Assembly: GCA_027382625.1 (NCBI GenBank)
Contig: JAJKFJ010021154.1
Span: forward strand, 62,001 to 126,000
Direction: 5' to 3'
DNA: 64,000 bases
From: Tetmemena sp. SeJ-2015
Taxonomy: Eukaryota; Ciliophora; Spirotrichea; Sporadotrichida; Oxytrichidae
Made by a program: the position numbers and the translations under genes. Under the pieces are notes generated by a model. The model was not told the DNA's origin. It saw nothing but the letters and a program-made list of their open reading frames with translations, and made no database searches. Each line of letters opens with the position of its first letter. The stretch's first letter is position 1. Positions 50,735 to 60,985 of the stretch are shown here, piece after piece.

Positions 50735-50986
50735 ATAAAGGAAGAACAACGCATAACAGAAATGAATAGAGTTAGCATGTTTGAAGGATAAGGACTTTTT
50801 AATGTACAAAATTTTATTTAAGAACCTTAAAAGGAACTCAGACAAACTATATTGAGAATTAAGAATTGAGGGTGCATCAGTAACCTAAAATTTAAATATT
50901 TAATTAAATCAAATAAAAACCTACTTTTGGAAGTCAAAGTTAATCTCAACAAATTAAGCATTCCTAAATTTTGAGAATTCGAGATA
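50735..50986. other. Non-coding flank of the scrambled eIF2B-epsilon piece
   Basis: Between the stop of the small membrane gene and the 12-nt pointer. The minus-strand frame continues past the pointer for 75 nt to TGA at 50909-50911, but this sequence has no counterpart in eIF2B-epsilon and should be germline-limited. Confidence 0.55.
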
Positions 50987-50998
50987 ACTTTCATCATC
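50987..50998 (-). other. Scrambling pointer, copy 1 (12 nt)
   Basis: On the minus strand this reads GATGATGAAAGT, at the 3' edge of the N-terminal eIF2B-epsilon piece. The same 12 nt starts the C-terminal piece at 58046-58057 on the plus strand. Sequences beyond it on each side differ. Confidence 0.92.
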
Positions 50999-52627
50999 CT
51001 CGTGAGTGGGATTATATCCAATTACTTCACTCTCTTTTAAAGTGCACTCTCTAGGGAGATAAGAGAATACTCCGACTTCAAGAATATCAGTTTTATCTGA
51101 TTCCTCGCTCATCTGGAATTCACCATTCTTAGAGTTGAATGTATACTTGCTCACAATTGATTTCTCTTAAACAGTTTTCCCCTCTTTAACAGACACTCCA
51201 AATGAAAGCATTGAGCCTGATTAAACTGTGACGTTTTTAGAAAGCTGAACTTTGTCGCAAATAATTGCATTTTCAACTATAGATCCGTCCTCAATCCTTA
51301 CGTCATTCCAAATTAAATTTAAATGAAAGAGTTCTTGATGACTACATTATTCCCAATATGGCAGTTTTTGCCTATAGTTGATCTTTCCACTCTTGAATGA
51401 TTTCCAATCTTTGAGCTCTTCCCTATTTAGCAATTGTTGGTAACAACAGATCCAAGTCCGATTGAGACATCTGATTCATAATATTTGTTGAAGCTCTGAA
51501 ATGAGTAGTTTTGATTTGGGAAGAGCAGCTTAGAATCAACAACCATGGGATGAAGATATCTAGAGAGTATATCCTAAGTGACCTCCGAATAGGTTCTTGG
51601 GTCCAATATCCTAGCGAAGTAGCCATTAATCTCATAGGCCATGATTCTATCTTCTATGATTTCACTTGACTGTATCTAGTTGATAAAATCATCACTCAAG
51701 TTCTCATAATCAAAGTTATCGGTGAAGTAATTTAGGACATCTCTGCTACAGATGCAAATATCTGCGTCAACCAAGTCGTATCTAACCTAGTATCTCCTTG
51801 CTTACTGTTTTAGTGGTATATAGAGCTCATTGATTTTCAACTTTTTGGACAACTAGAAAGACTCATACTTAAGAATTTCCTTGGTACCATCATCAAGAAT
51901 TAATGCAACCTCTTGCTAGTTATTTCTGATAGGATTTGAGAAAGGGATCTTCACAAAAAGTTTGGTTAGAATCAACTTTCTATCTTTGTCTAATGCTTGA
52001 GCTCTGAAGTGTTCCTTGATAGCCCCATGAATATTGACATTAGTGATTATATCTCCTCTGCAGAGAATGAATTCACTCTTAATAGTCTGGATCTAATTGA
52101 TCTCTCTGAGGGCATCTCCAAAGTTTGAGCTGCTCTCTAGAGTAATTACATTAATCTTGACACCTTTGTAGCTTTGAGCCTTAAGGAATTTGTCAATCTA
52201 GCTTCTATGAAGGCAGACTGCAATGAAGATCTCAGTGACTTTGTTCATTAGGAGGAACTCTATCACATAGTGCAAAATCTAAACATTGGCGAGAGGGAAC
52301 ATGCACTTTAACTTTTCATGAGATAGAGGCTTGAACTTGTTCTGGAAACTTTCTGCGATATAGCTGAGATATTTTTATTTTGCAATGTATCATGAATTTT
52401 AGGATCAGAATGATTTATTAATGCCAAACAAATTAATGATGATAAAAATTAGACTGCACAAAATTAATCGACAGAGTAAACTGTCGTAATTTTTAAATAA
52501 ACTATCACTTATAAGCATAAAATAATAACAGCTTGGAGTCCATTCTTGATAAACTCTTCGTAATTCTAAAGTATCAGTATTACAAATGCTTGCTTCAGAG
52601 AAAAGATATTAATCTTACAGCTGACAT
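50987..52627 (-). CDS. eIF2B-epsilon: eIF2B epsilon subunit, N-terminal MDS cluster (scrambled gene, part 1)
   Basis: ATG 52627. A 26-nt GT-AG intron (52593-52618) comes after MSA. The nucleotidyltransferase-like domain follows: NGLQAVIIAESFQNKFKPLS, then MFPLANVQILHYVIEFLLMN, CRGDIITNVNI, VALILDDGTKEIL. The left-handed beta-helix of hexapeptide repeats follows (VSIGLGSVVTNNCQIGKSSK, IGKNCHIGNNVVIKNSFIW, VENAIICDKVQLSKNVTVQS). It stops being eIF2B-epsilon after IGYNPTHEDDES at the pointer 50987-50998. The GTP-exchange catalytic W2 domain is missing here and is found at 58046-58819 on the other strand. Full protein: catalytic subunit of the guanine-nucleotide exchange factor for eIF2 in translation initiation. 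Two IESs are resolved inside (51310, 52358). Confidence 0.92.
51310..51324. other. 11-nt IES, pointer AAAT
   Basis: AAAT at 51310-51313 and 51321-51324. Removing 11 nt joins VVIKNSFI to WNDVRIEDGSIV in the beta-helix of eIF2B-epsilon. Confidence 0.88.
52358..52524. other. 164-nt IES, pointer ATA
   Basis: ATA at 52358-52360 and 52522-52524. Removing 164 nt joins KNGLQAVII to AESFQNKFKPL, the start of the nucleotidyltransferase domain as in other eIF2B-epsilon proteins. The short pointer is the best of several alternatives. Confidence 0.75.
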
Positions 52628-52762
52628 ATTTACTATTAAAGTTTTAAAGAAATTATTATATAATTAACTATATGCAATCTCAAATTAGGTTCAAATTAAA
52701 AATGAAATTGGGAACGAAAGATTGCTAAATATAAAACCCCTTTAAATTATTAAATCAACCAA

Positions 52763-53726
52763 TCAGTTAATCTTCATTTTCTATTTGTCTTGGATCAATT
52801 TTAAGTTTGCTTTCACAAACTTCTACTCCTCTCCGTTATTAGAAAGAATCTGTTGGTTGTTTAATGATGATTAAATAAGAGCGTCAGTAAGATCTGTTCC
52901 TACGCTCTTTTCAACTTATTTTACGATTCTGGGCCACATTATATTCGTGAATTTTGTTATTGGAATCGAAAGGGGTCTCTTATTTGGTAAGCAGTATTTG
53001 TCAAATCTCTTTCCCATTAGATCCTCAATTAACTCCCTCAATAGTAAATAAAATTTAGGGATATATTTTATCGAGAACTTGTTGTCTTTTCCAATTACTG
53101 GATCTAAATTGATCTTTATCACTGGCTTCCCTACAAACCCATACCAACAGCCCTTACTCTTATCGTTAGAATAGAAAACTCTTATCTTTCTTTAAAAAGA
53201 TTTAAATTGCACATTATTTATAATTTAACTTTCCATTGATACTTTTGAGTAAAATGTTCACTGCTATGGGAATTTTATAGTAGTTTTACAATCCCCAGTT
53301 GAAGTTAATCTCAGTTTTAATTAGTACTTCCACAGTTCCTCTCAATGAAAGATCAATATCGTGAAGGAATTCATCCGGCTGGGAGTCAAGTCTCTAGATT
53401 TTTTAGAATTAAGGAGCGCTGCCATGGAGAGTAACTTTATGAACTTCAATCTCTGAAAGAATTTTAGGTCTGCCCTTATTTGCTACTAGATATATTTCCT
53501 TCAAGATGAAGTTTTGAAACACCTGAGAAGATTTCCATTCTTGGTAAAATACAGAGAGCGCCTTATTAAACCAGTTTGCGGTCTCTGAGCCAGATTAAGA
53601 TTTCAATAAGTTTTCAGAGGATTGATTTAACTCCTGTTGTTGCTGTGAAGGAATGTTCAATTAGTTTGAACCATAATTGTTGAAGATGTTTATTTACTTC
53701 CCAAGGTTAAAACTGTAATTAGACAT
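52763..53726 (-). CDS. SMP-domain lipid-transfer protein
   Basis: ATG 53726, TGA 52763-52765. After a Gln/Asn/Ser-rich start of about 45 residues comes ETANWFNKALSVFYQEWKSS, typical of the first helix of an SMP (synaptotagmin-like, mitochondrial, lipid-binding) domain. The beta strands follow (EIEVHKVTLHGSAPQFQKI, DIDLSLRGTVEVLIKTEINF, CWYGFVGKPVIKINLDPVIG). It ends with FTNIMWPRIVK and an acidic tail. SMP proteins carry lipids at membrane contact sites. No transmembrane segment or C2 domain is visible, as in simple Mdm12-type members. One IES (53186) splits the domain. The gene lies between the two parts of scrambled eIF2B-epsilon. Confidence 0.7.
53186..53233. other. 43-nt IES, pointer CTTTC
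   Basis: CTTTC at 53186-53190 and 53229-53233. Removal joins LLKSINGK to IRVFYSNDKSKGCW within the SMP domain. Confidence 0.8.
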
Positions 53727-53761
53727 CGATTTCTAAACTTTAACTTTTTATATATCAAATC

Positions 53762-55974
53762 TCAATATATGAAAATGTCTTTATTAAAGAGGGTTTATCT
53801 CTACTCTTAATTCTGAACTGAATTATCTTAGGAGATTAAATCATCCCTTGCAAACATCTCATTAACCAAACCCTCTTTTGCTGGTCTGTATGCACTTCTC
53901 GATCTTGCCCTATTGATGTCTTGCTCCTTGTTTATTGTAATATCGTTTGAGTAATCTATATCTTGACCTTGGAGCAAATTTTAAGGGAAGTAATGATCAT
54001 CAAAATGCAATGTAAAATATTTAAGATCATCTTTGCTAAGTGACTTTTTGGCTGGGCTGATAGATATTGACTTCTTGGAATGCTCAGATTATAAAATAAG
54101 ATGAATAATCCTAAGGGTTAAAATACATGCATTCCCTTTTATGGAATACAGGATCTTGATTTTTCTCTTCATTAGCAATCATAAGGTTTTACTCCATCTG
54201 CTGTTTTTCATCTTCGGTACTCTAATCCATATCAATCATGATGTTCTTTTCGACTGCGGTCATTAGATTCTTAAAGAAGTTTTAGGAGTTGCGACTCCTT
54301 TCTTGATGAGCAATCAATATGTCTGATTTGAGTTCCAATATCTTATCCTTGATAGAGTATTTGATTGGCTCGTATTGCTTTAGAGATTTACTTAAAATAT
54401 AAGTTATAATTATTTTCACCAATGGTTTAATTTATATATATTTTGTGATAATCAATTTAAAGATTGAGTAATATCCCTGAACAACAATTTAAGCTGATTT
54501 GTGATTTCTTCATGCCTCTGTATCTTTTGTGGGAGCATGCTTTATAATTGCTCTATCTCTTATTTTGACAACTAATCTGTCTGAGCTGCATTTAGAACAC
54601 TTTAAATTATAATTAGTATGCTACACTTGGCTGATTGAGATACTTAGATTTAATATTTTGGTACTGCTTAACATACTATTATTGCGGAGAATCATGAATA
54701 ACTTAATTAAATATTTAAAAGTGCGAATATAATAGTAGGTAGAGGTAGTCCTCTATGAGGCTTGAGATGACTTGTCTTGAGCAGAGAGGTGTGAGATGTG
54801 CTTAATATTTGAATTAAGAGACTTAGATTCGTTGATCAGCACTTTGGCTTTACTCAGTTTTTAATTGATGAGAAGTGAAGTTGCATTCTTCTTTTCAATT
54901 GCTTGACTCAAGAAAAGCTCCAAAATTTAAGAGTAGTCTTTTAGCTTGGCTTGCAAAGATTCGTACTGGTGGATATAAGATTTGAAATTTTCTTATTAAA
55001 TAAATTTATTATTTGATAACACTTTAGTTTAACAAAGCTATAATTTATAAAGCATTTTTTAGCCATATTTTATTAATAATTTTAAGCATCCTTGCTTCAT
55101 AATTAAAATTTTTTAAATTTTTAACAATTTTTAGGGTCTTAGAATATTTTATTTCTTTAATTTGAAATTACTAATCAGATCATACCACAATTTTGAAAGC
55201 AATAAATTATTTTTGACTTAATTTGCAATTGATATTTACTTTCTGATTTCCATAAAATTTGAAAAAATTAAATTTAAACTCTAAATTTAATAAAAGCAGG
55301 TCATTGTTATCTTTCTTGATTTTGAGTTGCTTTATCTTCTTTAGAGTTTACTGTTAGTTTTGAATGAGCTCTAATTAATTTTAGTTGTCATCACTCATAA
55401 CATGAGTGGCATTTTCAAATTGAGACTCCATTATATTTTGGAAATTAGAGCAGTAAGTTTTTATACCGCTCACCATTTACTTCTGGTATTAGTTTAAGTC
55501 CTTTGCTCCTTGAATTAGAGTTTAAAGCTACCTCAAACTCACCAATTTTTAATTCTTAAAGAAAATTGTAAATTTATTTAAAAATAGCCTTTTATCATAA
55601 TCAAATGAAATAATTAAAGTCTCTTAATTAAATAAAAAACTTTAACAGTAACTCAAATTATTCTTGTTCTAGAAGGTGTTGAAGTTATTTTCGTAATTTA
55701 GAATGTCGTGGAGAGAGGAAGTATTTAGATTTTATTAAGAGGATTTAGGAGACATTACATTTTCAAAGTTTGAAATATTCTTAGAGATATCGCCACTCAC
55801 TTTCAACTCTTCAAAATCATTTTCTCTGAAAATTACCACATTATAGAATAAGGAAAATACTTTATGGATTTATTTAGAAATTTTTTTGTGATATAAAGGA
55901 ATTATTTGCAATTTGGATAATTCTTCTATAAACTCTCCTCCACCTATATTCTTAAAAATTAGACACGCCACATC
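53762..55974 (-). CDS. Coiled-coil protein of unknown function
   Basis: TGA 53762-53764. The most upstream clear coding is at about 55974 (DVACLIFKNIGGGEFIEELS), where no ATG was found, so the first exon may lie behind an IES or elsewhere. A polar region and a coiled coil (about 55300-54800: NQQQTLKKIKQLKIKK, YESLQAKLKDYSQILELFLS) are followed by a C-terminal part ending with Arg/Ser-rich sequence (INRARSRSAYRPAKEG). AT-rich DNA at about 55005-55290 and 54600-54720 breaks the frame and probably represents two larger IESs. The ATG at 55431 may look like a start, but the IES at 55417-55446 joins the frames across it. The spacer to the next gene is only 35 bp. Confidence 0.5.
55417..55446. other. 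25-nt IES, pointer AAATT
   Basis: AAATT at 55417-55421 and 55442-55446. Removing 25 nt joins GERYKNLLLQ to FENATHVMSDDNQNQ in one frame. Confidence 0.65.
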
Positions 55975-57983
55975 AAATGAATATTTAGTAAATGGTTAGA
56001 AAAGGTAAATCAATTTTCAAAAATTATTATAATTAACCAATTTAATAGTTGTAATTAATCTTAAATTTTAAAAATGGTATATTACTGAGCTACGCTTCTA
56101 ACTTCTTATGCTTCATAGGAGACATGTTATATTCGAGTGGTATGCTGTTCACATTAGCAACTGAGCTATCAAAATCATTTATTTCTAAGTTTTCCTCCTG
56201 CAAGAAATCGTCGTCAGTATCTGAACCCTTAAATAATCCCTCATTACCATCGTCTCCTTTAGCAGACAAAAATGAATAATCTTTAGTCAGATCTAAAAGG
56301 AAAAAGATAAATTAATCCTTAGGGCCTATCGTCCCCATACTCATTCTCCCAGTACCGTTAAAGTTCTAGCTGATTCTTAAGTTAGAAAAAGAGCTCTCCT
56401 CCAGCTGAAGCTAATTCATGAACTTCAAAACTTCATCCTCCTTAAACTTGAGTGATCTCTTCCTGTTTCTATCAAATATAATGTCTTCCTCCTCAGCATT
56501 AGATTCATGTCCTGATGAAGAGGGGTCAAAGCTATTATTCTCTTCTTTATCGTTTAAATGCTTCTACTGATTCTCAACTTATACCATCAGGGCTTTCAAA
56601 TTCAAGTTAAAATAAGTTTGACTACTTTTGGCACTCGTCGAAGTAGTTTTAAGCTTAAAGTTCAAATTCGTGGAAAGTATCGACAACACTCATTATAGTA
56701 CTCTTGAAAATCTCTCCCTTGTTTCGATCTAGAGCCCAAAGCTCTTGTATCATTTCATTAGTCTGAGTTTGAAATTTCTCTCTTGTCTCACACAAGCAGT
56801 CCAAAGCATCGCTAACTTTACTTGCTGTGTCTTGCATCTTCTTATAAGAAAGTTTAAACCTCATCTCTTGTTCAAGTAGCTTCTAGTAGTTATTGATGGT
56901 TTAACTTGCCTTAGTGTATGTTTAGATGCTGTCATCTACTATTTTAGAGTCCTTGGCGTACTCATTGCGTATTTTGATTAGCTTCTTTTCTGAAATATCT
57001 AGCTCTTCACATAGCAATAGATGCTTTATAATCATAATATGAAAGTATTACTTCTGTTAGTACTACTTCACTTTCTAAAGCACTGTTTCATTCAAGGCAT
57101 GGATGTTAGCAAGCACTCCACGTTTCAAAAAGAGTGCGTTCTCTACATGGCATACTCCTATCTCATTGAAAACTTTCCTAATAAGTCTTGCTTTGCAAAA
57201 AGAGAAATATCCCTTGCTTTAGGTCTTTTAAGAACTCAAATTCAAGTGCTAGTGATCGTCAAACATGGGATCTTTGAAGAAAACTAGTTCATTGAACTGG
57301 CCAATCAATTGAATTGAGGGATGACCAAGCCTTGATAAGTTTCGCCCATTCAGTTGCTCGTTTTTCATGAGAGCTGAGTAGAATTACTCAATAAGGCCAA
57401 GGAAGCTTTATATTTTCTGGGACTTAGCTTTTATCACAATTTTAAAACTATCTTTTTCAATTCTGCAATTGCATATCTAGTTTATAATACAAAAATAAAA
57501 TAGCGATTGCTTTTTACCTATAGCCTAGGTTTTAACTGAATTAGCAACTATATCCAGCCTCATAAAGTCAAGCACAATTAACATTAAATGTGTGTAGGTA
57601 TCTTCTATTATCTGGGTATCCATAAAATTAAGATAATATTTACTTAAATGACTTGGGCTTTAAGAAAATATTTATTATGTGTTGTCTATTTTTAAATAGT
57701 TCTTTGCAAGTCTGTCTCCAGTGCCTCCAATTCTTTCAGTAATACTCTAAGATCCAAACTTTTGAATGAGTTCATGAGGCTTGATGTTTTAAAAGTGCTC
57801 TGGTGAGAGATTAGTCAGAGGATTGCTCTATATGTCCTAAAATATGCGTGTAGATTCTTAGTTGACATTTATTAACTCTTAAGTGCATCCCTATGATTGA
57901 TTTGAGTCCACAGATACCTTCTACCCGAAGATAGTACCTCCTAATGAATTTGCGGAAATCTTTTTTCCTGGAGATTGATTCAT
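55973..57983 (-). CDS. Sorting-nexin-like protein with helical (BAR-like) region
   Basis: ATG 57983, starting MNQSPGKKISANSLGGTIFG. After a polar N-terminus (about 170 residues) a divergent PX-like region is suggested by ETYQGLVIPQFNELVFFKDP, produced if a TTCAAT-flanked 17-nt insert near 57293-57315 is removed. A long amphipathic helical region follows (about 57010-56640: IRNEYAKDSKIVDDSIQTYT, YKKMQDTASKVSDALDCL), resembling the BAR domain of PX-BAR sorting nexins. Then comes an acidic Ser-rich tail. The expected role is membrane tubulation in endosomal sorting, by analogy only. The first TGA in the final frame is 55973, but coding quality drops after 56090, so the 3' end is uncertain. The frame in 57320-57960 is fully open, so IES limits there could not be fixed from stop codons. 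Confidence 0.45.
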
Positions 57984-58045
57984 GCCCCCAATTTGTTGAG
58001 AATAATTCGCTTTTAAACTAAATATTTTATGGTCGTATATAGGGA

Positions 58046-58057
58046 GATGATGAAAGT
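58046..58057 (+). other. Scrambling pointer, copy 2 (12 nt)
   Basis: GATGATGAAAGT on the plus strand, followed by coding GATTTCGATGAAGAG. It matches the end of the piece at 50987-50998, which is inverted relative to this one. The codon phase is the same in both (GAT GAT GAA AGT). Confidence 0.92.
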
Positions 58058-58819
58058 GATTTCGATGAAGAGGGAGATGAAGATGAGCACAAGTCTAGTG
58101 AGGCTTTTAACTTAGAAGTTAAAAAGACTATCGAGAGAACTACCTAAGATCAGATCAATAACGCTATCACAGAGGTGAAGTCTCTAAGAATGTCCTACAA
58201 TAAGGACTAATCAGATTGCATCGACTCTATAGTTCCACCTCTGTTAGATAAGGTCACTGAGGAAAATTTGCAAAAGAGATCAAAGCAATTGCAAGAGCTG
58301 TTTAACGACTGGAAGGAGCTACTCATTGAATTCATGCGAGGAGGTGACTCTGACGAAAAGACTTTCAACTAGTTCAGCTTATTAAGAGCTATTGAGATCT
58401 ACTGCGGCACTCATGAGCTGTTCAATAATACTTTCCACTTGATTTGCTAGATAATCTATTAACTGAAGCTGGTTGAATCTTCTATCTTCCTCAAGTGGAA
58501 TCTATTTCATTAAATGAATGCTCATATCTTTAAATCAGTAGGCAAAGAAGAGTGTGGCAAACAAAGACGATGAGGATTAGTAAGATGCTATATTTGAGCA
58601 CTTTGACTGCGCCAAAAGAGAAAGATTCATCAAGGATGTAAGTTAGATGATGATGCTTAATTAAATGACTTTTAGATGGCCAAATTCATAGACTTTTTGG
58701 AGAAGCAGCAAGATTAAGATGAAGAGGAGGAAGAGGGAGAAGAGGAATATGATGAAGAAGAGGAGGAGGAAGCATAGGAAAATGAAGGAGAAGAGGAGGA
58801 AGAGGAGGATGACCAATGA
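58046..58819 (+). CDS. eIF2B-epsilon: eIF2B epsilon subunit, C-terminal MDS cluster with W2 domain (scrambled gene, part 2)
   Basis: Starts directly at the 12-nt pointer, without ATG or promoter of its own, and ends at TGA 58817-58819. Begins DDESDFDEEGDEDEHKSSEA (the acidic linker of eIF2B-epsilon), then EVKKTIERTTQDQINNAI and EVKSLRMSYN (the linker helix conserved in the family). The W2 domain of HEAT type follows: LQELFNDWKELLIEFMRGG, LLRAIEIYCGTHELFNNTFH, LICQIIYQLKLVESSIFLKW, then MAKFIDFLEKQQDQDEEEEE with the usual acidic end. An IES with pointer AATC (58499-58536) and a 38-nt GT-AG intron (58638-58675, GTAAGT...TTTTAG) interrupt it. Joined to 50987-52627 on the other strand, it completes the protein in frame. 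Only one N-terminal part is seen in the window, but another locus could exist outside. Confidence 0.92.
58499..58536. other. 34-nt IES, pointer AATC
   Basis: AATC at 58499-58502 and 58533-58536. Removal joins SSIFLKWNQ to QAKKSVANKDDEDQ in the W2 domain. Confidence 0.82.
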
Positions 58820-58961: not shown

Positions 58962-60985
58962 ATGGAAGTAGAAACTCAACAATCTTTTGATGCAGTGGTG
59001 AATACAAGTGACATGTATATTCACCCTTCGAGATAGGCTGCTCTCTCTGGCTATAAAGAATCTTCCTCTCGGACTGAGTAGAGAAGGGACAGCAGAGAGA
59101 AAAGATACTGAGATAAAAATGATGATCGTGATTACAGGAGCGACAGGTATAGAGATAGCAAGTATAGGTATATTGCTCAAATATTTAAGATATTTAAAAT
59201 AATTGAAAATATAATTTTAAAAGAATAGTGATAGAGACAGAGGGGGTGCTGACGATAGAAGGAAATCGAGCAGATACTCTCCAAATGAGGAAAAGGATAA
59301 GAAAAGAAAGTCATCCAAGTCAAAGTCCTCAGAGAAAACGAAGTAGAGAACTTCAAAATCTAAATCACCTCAAAAAGAGAAGAAGCCCAGATCTCGTACA
59401 CGAAGTAAATCCGCTTCTCCCAGGCATAGAAACTACTCGGAGTACTATCAAGATAAATATAGATAAGAGCGTGAGAGAAGACCCAAAAGGGAGTCTAAGT
59501 GGACTGATAAGCCTTTGAATTATTGTGGAAGCTTCACTCTAAATTAATCATCAACGAATTGTGAGATAGGGCAGTAGCTTACTCCTGATCTTCAGGAATT
59601 GGCAAATAAGTTATATGCTGCAAATCCTGCTCTGACTTTAAATACAACGCCCTATTATTATCACTGGTCACCGGGATTGCACCCAAATATCACTAAGCTG
59701 TTAAATGATCCGATGAAATTCAAAAAGAAAGTTTACATCCCTTAGTCTCAACACATCAATTTCGTCGGACTCTTAATAGGACCTAAGGGAACTTATCAGA
59801 AGAAGCTTGAAGATGAGACGGGCTGCAAACTCTTGATTAGAGGAAAGTAAGTATATTTAGTAGAAGTAAGTATTTATTTAGTCGAAACTAGATAAGAGAT
59901 TATGTGCAGGGATAACCGATAGTAAACCAAAACAATGTTCGAGACGATCCTGAGGACTCTCATGTCATTGTATTATAAATGATAGTTTAATCTGTATGCA
60001 GGTGGTCGGAGATACCGAGAAGTAAGTAAATGATGCTGAAACTACAATCATGAATATCCTATTTGCAAATGATGAAGAGAGAAATAAGATCAGAGCAGAG
60101 TAGTTGAAAGTAGCAGAGGAATTGAATAGTCAAATATTTCCATTTTAGAACGATGACTCTATGATGACACCATATGGACCACCAAGCCCCTCTGCTTTTG
60201 TCCTTCCAATTCCAAATGATTGTGTTGGCTTGATTATTGGTAAGGGAGGAGAGACAATAAGAAATTTGCAGCTCTAAAGCGGAGCAAAAATACAAGTAGC
60301 TAAAAAGGAGTTAGCAGGAAGTCAGCAGAGAAATGTATTCATAGAGGGCCCTTAAGAAAGATACGATTTAGCCAAGAAATTGATTGAAGAGATAGTCAGT
60401 GAGGCCAGAAAGCTAAACAAAACTTCAAGCTCTGGTTATTTCGGAAGTAATCTAAATGGGATTAGTGGAGAGGTGAATCCATTTCCAGGACCTCATATTC
60501 CATTTGCAATTCCAAATCAATTGACTGGACTGATAATCGGTAAAAATGGCGACACGATAAAGTAGTTGCATAATAAATGCGGTGCTTACATTTTTATTCC
60601 CAAGGTTCATGATGCAACAAGTAATGAAAGAATACTAGAGTTGTCTGGCAGTGAGGAGTAAATAGAAAGGGCCAAATTAGAAATTGGCAAACTACTAGGA
60701 AACGCAGTATTCGTGAAGCAGCAAGACTATTCAGGAAGTAGTAGTTATAATAACTCTGAGGGGAGGAGTGGAGAATACAAATCCTCAAGGTATAACTATC
60801 CTCCCTACACCAAGAGTGGAAACGAATATCATAACTCTGGTGACTAAGGTAATAGAGCTTAGAGTCATATGCCAAGCTCAAATCAGTATTAGGGAGATGA
60901 GCCAGGAATAGAAGCATAAGATATGATTATGCAATACATGTAAAGTTTATATGAAAATAAAGATGAAATTCTTAAGAGAAATTGA
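58962..60985 (+). CDS. RS-rich protein with three KH domains (SF1/FUBP-like)
   Basis: ATG 58962, TGA 60983-60985. The N-terminal 200 residues are Arg/Ser/Lys-rich ([20 protein letters not shown]-type repeats), as in splicing regulators. The first KH domain resembles SF1/[35 protein letters not shown]. Two more KH domains carry standard GxxG loops: [18 protein letters not shown] and [18 protein letters not shown]. The C-terminus is Tyr/Ser/Asn-rich. The likely role is single-stranded RNA binding in splicing or mRNA control. A 32-nt GT-AG intron lies near 59969-60000 and more splicing or IES near 59849-59920. An AT-rich insert is at about 59170-59223. An in-frame TGA at 59109-59111 disappears if a TAC-flanked 27-nt segment is removed. 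Confidence 0.75.

Follow-up and report, generated by a model that had tools for sequence, protein, structure and literature searches.

RESULTS

Organization of the probable germline eIF2B-epsilon gene

The gene for eIF2B-epsilon lies in two oppositely oriented pieces in a 64-kb stretch of contig JAJKFJ010021154.1, hereafter the window. We conclude, at a probability of roughly 94%, that it is a scrambled, inverted germline gene of the hypotrich type, in which macronuclear-destined segments (MDSs) 1 to 3 lie on the minus strand and MDSs 4 and 5 on the plus strand, around a 7.07-kb inverted block (Table 1). The observation of two oppositely oriented pieces sharing an exact 12-nucleotide (nt) sequence, GATGATGAAAGT, which we call pointer E, is confirmed. 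As expected of a scrambled gene, the pieces are out of orientation, are homologous to one protein and, when joined in frame through one copy of the pointer, give a full protein of the family. An original prediction from the letters of the window had proposed such a gene with a 12-nt pointer; the proposal is strongly supported by the continuous frame of a relative and by assembly searches that returned no second copy.

The joined gene was translated under a ciliate code (TAA and TAG read as glutamine, TGA as stop). With one pointer copy retained and two introns and three inserts removed, it encodes 700 amino acids, and codon phase is preserved across the scrambled junction, for which the predicted reading is ..CACGAG-GATGATGAAAGT-GATTTC... 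The joined protein matched the Pfam families LbH_EIF2B (109.6 bits; cutoff 54), W2 (35.8 bits; cutoff 30) and NTP_transferase (30.7 bits, above the curated cutoff); LbH_EIF2B and W2 above their curated cutoffs in one protein are the mark of eIF2B-epsilon. Alignment with S. pombe eIF2B-epsilon ran in a single stretch (residues 9 to 625; expect value 8.2 × 10−77), and the human eIF2B-epsilon chain matched the N-terminal part strongly. The predicted contents of the pieces were borne out (minus strand, nucleotidyltransferase domain with beta-helix; plus strand, acidic linker, helix and W2 domain), as was the claim that a one-copy join keeps phase and yields a continuous family-like protein. The two-piece layout was right as far as it went; the gene additionally holds the two introns and three inserts resembling internal eliminated sequences (IESs).

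The strongest evidence for the join is the alignment with the relative P0029, a 164-amino-acid open frame identical at 119/164 aligned positions (73%), which passes through the join in one frame. At the join, P0029 reads ..EDDESDFDDEE.. and the window ..EDDES/DFDEEG... Read on beyond the pointer, piece 1 loses its match to P0029 after the last pointer residue; extended upstream, piece 2 gains one only at the first pointer residue; the joined slice matches over all 164 residues. Pointer E coincides with the ends of homology on both pieces, and piece 1 does lose its likeness to eIF2B-epsilon right after the 12-mer, as originally noted; the 25-codon tail that follows has no match to P0029. A second relative, P0002 (554 amino acids; 34% identical), is also collinear through the join, and a third, P0001 (420 amino acids), is 63% identical over 421 positions. 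The contigs behind these relatives (longest for P0029, 6,898 bp; for P0001, 2,901 bp) may be somatic or germline, and the continuous frame of P0029 is only indirect evidence for a somatic join. Among IMG/VR contigs, the 27-nt joined pattern had no matches and no relative emerged by way of P0029 (two pattern matches, neither of them a relative).

Table 1. Features of the eIF2B-epsilon locus, with positions in the window
Feature	Position	Strand	Basis
First exon (ATGTCAGCT), start of germline piece 1	52619..52627	minus	Gene model; protein continues ..NGLQAVIIAESF, aligned with family members
GT-AG intron, 53 nt	52566..52618	minus	Gene model
Rest of MDS 1, ending in pointer TAT (52524-52522)	52522..52565	minus	Gene model; deletion enumeration
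IES 1, 164 nt, pointer TAT; 167-nt reading possible	52358..52521	minus	Repeat-bounded deletion yields LQAVIIAESF
MDS 2: nucleotidyltransferase domain and first part of beta-helix	51325..52357	minus	Pfam NTP_transferase and LbH_EIF2B on joined protein; own-genome match
IES 2, 11 nt, pointer ATTT; 5-nt deletion also possible	51314..51324	minus	Deletion enumeration; relative P0001
MDS 3: end of beta-helix and linker, ending in 12-nt pointer	50987..51313	minus	Joined gene model; P0029
Pointer E copy 1 (GATGATGAAAGT), end of MDS 3	50987..50998	minus	Exact match in window
Pointer E copy 2 (GATGATGAAAGT), start of MDS 4	58046..58057	plus	Exact match in window
MDS 4: acidic linker, conserved helix and first part of W2 domain	58046..58501	plus	Joined model; Pfam; P0029
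IES 3, 34 nt, pointer AATC (58499-58502 and 58533-58536)	58502..58535	plus	Restores ..FLKWNQQAKK.. of W2 domain
MDS 5: end of W2 domain and acidic tail; 38-nt GT-AG intron (58638-58675); stop TGA (58817-58819)	58536..58819	plus	Gene model
Inverted block, 7,071 nt, flipped relative to proposed somatic arrangement	50987..58057	.	In-silico flip
Nested SMP/MMM1-domain gene, complete-looking 318-amino-acid model	52763..53726	minus	PF10296, 22.9 bits (cutoff 21.9)
Nested open reading frames originally called coiled-coil; identity not confirmed	53762..56016	minus	No Pfam match above cutoff
Nested open reading frame, 469 amino acids, originally called sorting-nexin-like; identity not confirmed	56574..57983	minus	List of open reading frames
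Repeat S copy 1 (TCTCAACAAATT), proposed second pointer	50944..50955	plus	Unique inverted match in window
Repeat S copy 2 (TCTCAACAAATT), 6 nt upstream of ATG of neighbouring minus-strand 469-amino-acid frame	57990..58001	minus	In-silico flip

Short direct repeats (TAT, ATTT and AATC) bound the three inserts that break the frame, modelled as 164, 11 and 34 nt. Frame-restoring deletions of at least 5 nt were enumerated in a range around each break; none in the ranges scanned had GT-AG ends, and introns were rejected as the cause of the breaks. P0001 reads KNSFIWNN at the 11-nt site, as excision of 11 nt predicts.

Pointer E is an inverted repeat unique in the window

The same 12 nt stand at both piece ends, as the original prediction stated, and nowhere else in the window: the two matches are inverted to each other, the mean count in shuffled sequence was 0.02, and a count of 2 was reached in 0/100 shuffles. 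When the 84 nt around one site were compared with those around the other, they shared nothing longer than the 12-mer itself. We then slid each site over the window in overlapping windows on both strands, leaving out the two pointer E sites. The piece 1 site found a 12-nt match in 6/10,574 windows, all six at one place, and the piece 2 site in 0/10,574 (longest match, 11 nt). Against purine-rich windows, a control run with piece 1 only, a match of at least 11 nt occurred in 0/859, with none above 10; therefore, the acidic coding bias of the linker does not explain the repeat. Together, the shuffle and sliding-window controls rule out a chance 12-mer as the origin of pointer E. On one side the similarity runs on to 18/20 positions, an extension equaled in 5/858 sides of random inverted 12-mers, with four sides inspected at this locus. 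At 12 nt, the pointer is also longer than the 3 to 4 nt repeats at the modelled nonscrambled junctions of the same gene.

Copy number and germline character

A six-frame protein search of the 146-Mb assembly (expect value up to 1) returned five matches, all within the two pieces. DNA searches of the assembly found part of piece 1 (51400-52400) in one place and piece 2 in eight, seven of these being short matches in the part coding for the acidic tail. A second complete eIF2B-epsilon gene, which the original prediction had named as evidence to the contrary, was thus looked for in the whole assembly and not found, and neither the protein search nor the two DNA searches returned a somatic copy of the gene.

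We infer that the contig is germline (micronuclear) DNA. The gene carries frame-breaking inserts with 3 to 4 nt repeats that GT-AG introns do not explain in the ranges scanned, 150 DDE_3 transposase matches were scored from 921 first-look candidates, C4A4 telomere repeats occur inside contigs as well as at some contig ends, and a 7-nt insert interrupts the SMP gene nested in the block. IESs with pointers inside genes and an abundance of transposons, the marks of a micronuclear genome, are both present. The inserts, transposase matches and C4A4 repeats therefore indicate that the organism is most likely a hypotrich-type spirotrich. Separately, 21 C4A4-pattern matches cluster inside another contig (G000:C2828:3805-4156), possibly an internal telomere-like tract or a transposon end.

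The inverted block and its inner genes

A complete-looking SMP gene model sits between MDSs of eIF2B-epsilon, which would make the locus a nested one if the model corresponds to MDSs of another somatic chromosome. Of the three inner genes originally named, the SMP gene was upheld by its PF10296 match, while the coiled-coil and sorting-nexin-like frames had no Pfam match above cutoff. The 469-amino-acid frame (57983-56577, minus) also had no homologue at an expect value of 0.001 among 3,846 candidates, and the sorting-nexin-like name is not confirmed (its sole PDB match, at an expect value of 0.75, is meaningless). The insert in the SMP gene is flanked by TAAAT (a 10-nt reading is possible) and is another IES-like break.

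With the block un-inverted, the inner genes would run on the plus strand, as do the KH-domain gene on its right and the unassigned open reading frames on its left; this is an observation rather than a test. The KH-domain gene (58962-60985, plus; KHDC4/BBP-like match, 36.1 bits) begins some 140 nt beyond the stop of eIF2B-epsilon, which is very close spacing for germline DNA. To the left, an open frame at 50762-50866 (plus), starting MNRVSMFEGQGLFN, lies right behind the likely stop of the left-hand gene and, TGA being the sole stop codon, may be due to chance.

A second inverted repeat crosses pointer E

A second 12-mer pair, repeat S (TCTCAACAAATT), is likewise unique in the window and inverted. 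Such a match arises between 100-nt windows in 337/198,123 random pairs and in 366/197,862 pairs at 25 to 36% G+C content. The order of S relative to pointer E is swapped between the two ends of the block, and the two repeats form the window's only crossed pair of 12-mers at a spacing of 0.5 to 20 kb and no more than 80 nt from each other. An in-silico flip at pointer E brings the copies of S into direct orientation at a spacing of 99 nt, with the neighbouring ATG 6 nt downstream, and the pair then looks as an ordinary IES with 12-nt pointers would. The leader of the neighbouring frame after use of S is predicted to read ..AAAGTTAA-TCTCAACAAATT-GGGGGCATG... We considered whether the coding sequence of the neighbouring gene extends upstream of S and rejected this; the frame stays open there but lacks an in-frame ATG, and where TGA alone terminates translation, open frames carry little weight. 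Elsewhere in the same contig, near its right end, is a perfect 99-bp inverted repeat with arms about 360 bp apart (G000:C2233:141336-141890).

DISCUSSION

Processing and origin of the locus

Inverted MDSs have inverted-repeat pointers, and recombination between inverted repeats inverts the intervening DNA and does not delete it. During macronuclear development, the two copies of pointer E would most likely be recombined, and this single reaction would flip the block, make eIF2B-epsilon continuous and retain the inner genes, which may later be cut into somatic chromosomes. Three ordinary IESs would be removed besides the flip. The original prediction held that the inner genes need separate molecules or alternative processing of the same DNA; recombination between inverted repeats flips and retains the 7-kb block, and therefore no alternative processing is required for them. 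Maternal RNA may guide the reaction, as is stated for Oxytricha (PMC5940158). For this species, we infer somatic joining, its guidance by RNA and joining by a flip.

An alternative with the same germline structure concerns how the pieces are joined. MDSs 3 and 4 could be united on copies of the DNA that discard the block, with the inner genes supplied by other copies, as in Russian-doll loci. Such nested loci with other genes inside are documented (1301 macronuclear contigs in Oxytricha, 8%, contain nested MDSs of others; PMC5940158). Against this, recombination at inverted pointers turns the block around instead of excising it, so that a single reaction can serve every gene, and S is an ordinary direct pair only once the block has been flipped. 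We regard joining on separate copies as less likely and retain the flip as the preferred route.

The germline itself could also be collinear, with the 7-kb inversion an artefact of assembly or amplification at the 12-nt inverted repeat. Inversion between inverted repeats would produce exactly such a pattern, and the DNA searches of the assembly found no second haplotype of either piece. However, 12 bases are far below usual assembly overlaps, which are far longer, and both junctions would need to be wrong. Inverted scrambled loci are, moreover, common in such genomes (PMC10901763). An artefact is accordingly very improbable. Least credible, to the point of being nearly negligible, is a pair of independent genes, one for a truncated eIF2B-epsilon and the other for a free W2-domain protein (by gene fission or trans-splicing): the piece 1 frame does stay open for 25 codons, to a TGA, and the piece 2 frame is open upstream to 57866, but the in-frame ATGs upstream of piece 2 fall antisense inside the neighbouring frame, the piece 1 tail lacks a counterpart in P0029, which has a single frame, and the exact in-phase repeat at both ends of homology would be left unexplained.

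Several points nevertheless weigh against a scrambled, inverted hypotrich gene. The human eIF2B-epsilon chain matches the C-terminal part weakly (12.3 bits). All three IES boundaries have alternatives in the deletion enumeration, IES 3 allowing, for example, a 28-nt deletion. The remaining sides of E and S show no extension of similarity (4/12 for E; 5/12 and 2/12 for S). The join is predicted here from the assembly and the frame of a relative rather than read from a somatic molecule, and the hypotrich label, though the most likely one, draws on the code, the telomere repeat, the inserts and the transposons.

How the locus arose is a more tentative matter. One germline inversion may have made it, its end repeat becoming pointer E and a 99-nt IES of the neighbour becoming the inverted pair S; we place this at somewhat less than even odds. 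The inversion could have used a short repeat or duplicated or created one, the scar then serving as the pointer, and one developmental flip at E would both restore eIF2B-epsilon and return S to an ordinary IES pair. An inverted scrambled locus would then have been born in a single step, as distinct from gradual duplication and decay. Other results lend a one-step origin no support. At 11 nt, crossed and nested pairs in the window number four and three, no more than expected by chance. A general excess of crossed over nested inverted pairs of at least 12 nt was sought in 254.5 kb (144.5 kb of contig C2233, window included, and 110 of the 166 kb of contig C2193) and rejected (3 versus 2); therefore, the geometry of E and S is improbable by chance only if the eIF2B pointer is taken as given. 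Finally, the neighbouring frame has no homologue at an expect value of 0.001 to supply a leader with which S could be compared.

Comparison with known scrambled genes

Scrambled, inverted loci have been described from Oxytricha, Tetmemena, Halteria and Strombidium (PMC9797194, PMC10901763), and nested loci from Oxytricha and Tetmemena (PMC9797194, PMC10901763, PMC5940158). In Oxytricha, 29.2% of chromosomes are scrambled (5285/18,111), 21.4% of these by inversion; scrambling by inversion reaches 37.7% in Halteria and 69.4% in Strombidium (PMC10901763). Figures within the scrambling comparison include 13.6% of Tetmemena loci and 7.3% for a species given as "E." Oxytricha pointers are 2 to 20 nt long (PMC5940158). 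Scrambling, inversion and nesting being already documented, the locus is a new example of known scrambling. Our search of the scrambled-gene literature did not find eIF2B in the papers listed, with most subscription journals outside its scope, so that the locus is not thereby shown to be unpublished.

Like the inverted scrambled genes of spirotrichs (Oxytricha trifallax, Tetmemena, Halteria and Strombidium), eIF2B-epsilon here has MDSs of opposite orientation, a pointer copy at each broken end, a longer pointer at the scrambled junction (12 versus 3 to 4 nt) and IES-like inserts elsewhere. It differs in having one scrambled junction, a large gene-filled inverted block and no odd-even series, and it is another gene, known from germline sequence. 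A possible likeness to the nested Russian-doll loci of Oxytricha (PMC5940158) is that at least one complete-looking gene model, SMP, lies between two MDSs of the same gene; in contrast, the enclosing junction here is an inversion, and the inner genes would be flipped rather than excised within an IES if recombination is direct.

Compared with the eIF2B-epsilon family (yeast GCD6, human EIF2B5), the 700-amino-acid protein has the same nucleotidyltransferase-like domain, left-handed beta-helix, acidic linker and W2 domain. The germline layout differs, as does the C-terminal tail behind W2 (58676-58819, plus), which is long, almost pure in Glu and Asp, and longer than in the five aligned members with a C terminus.

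eIF2B-epsilon is essential in yeast. If our reading is true, the cell must repair this gene at each new macronucleus, and the locus is a simple, nearly minimal case of inverted scrambling, with one junction, one pointer and a gene found once in the assembly. The order-swapped 12-mer pairs at the ends of the block suggest that such a locus may originate in one step and stay reversible, which bears on how scrambled genes arise; the simplicity of the flip, together with the second pair of repeats, makes such an origin testable.

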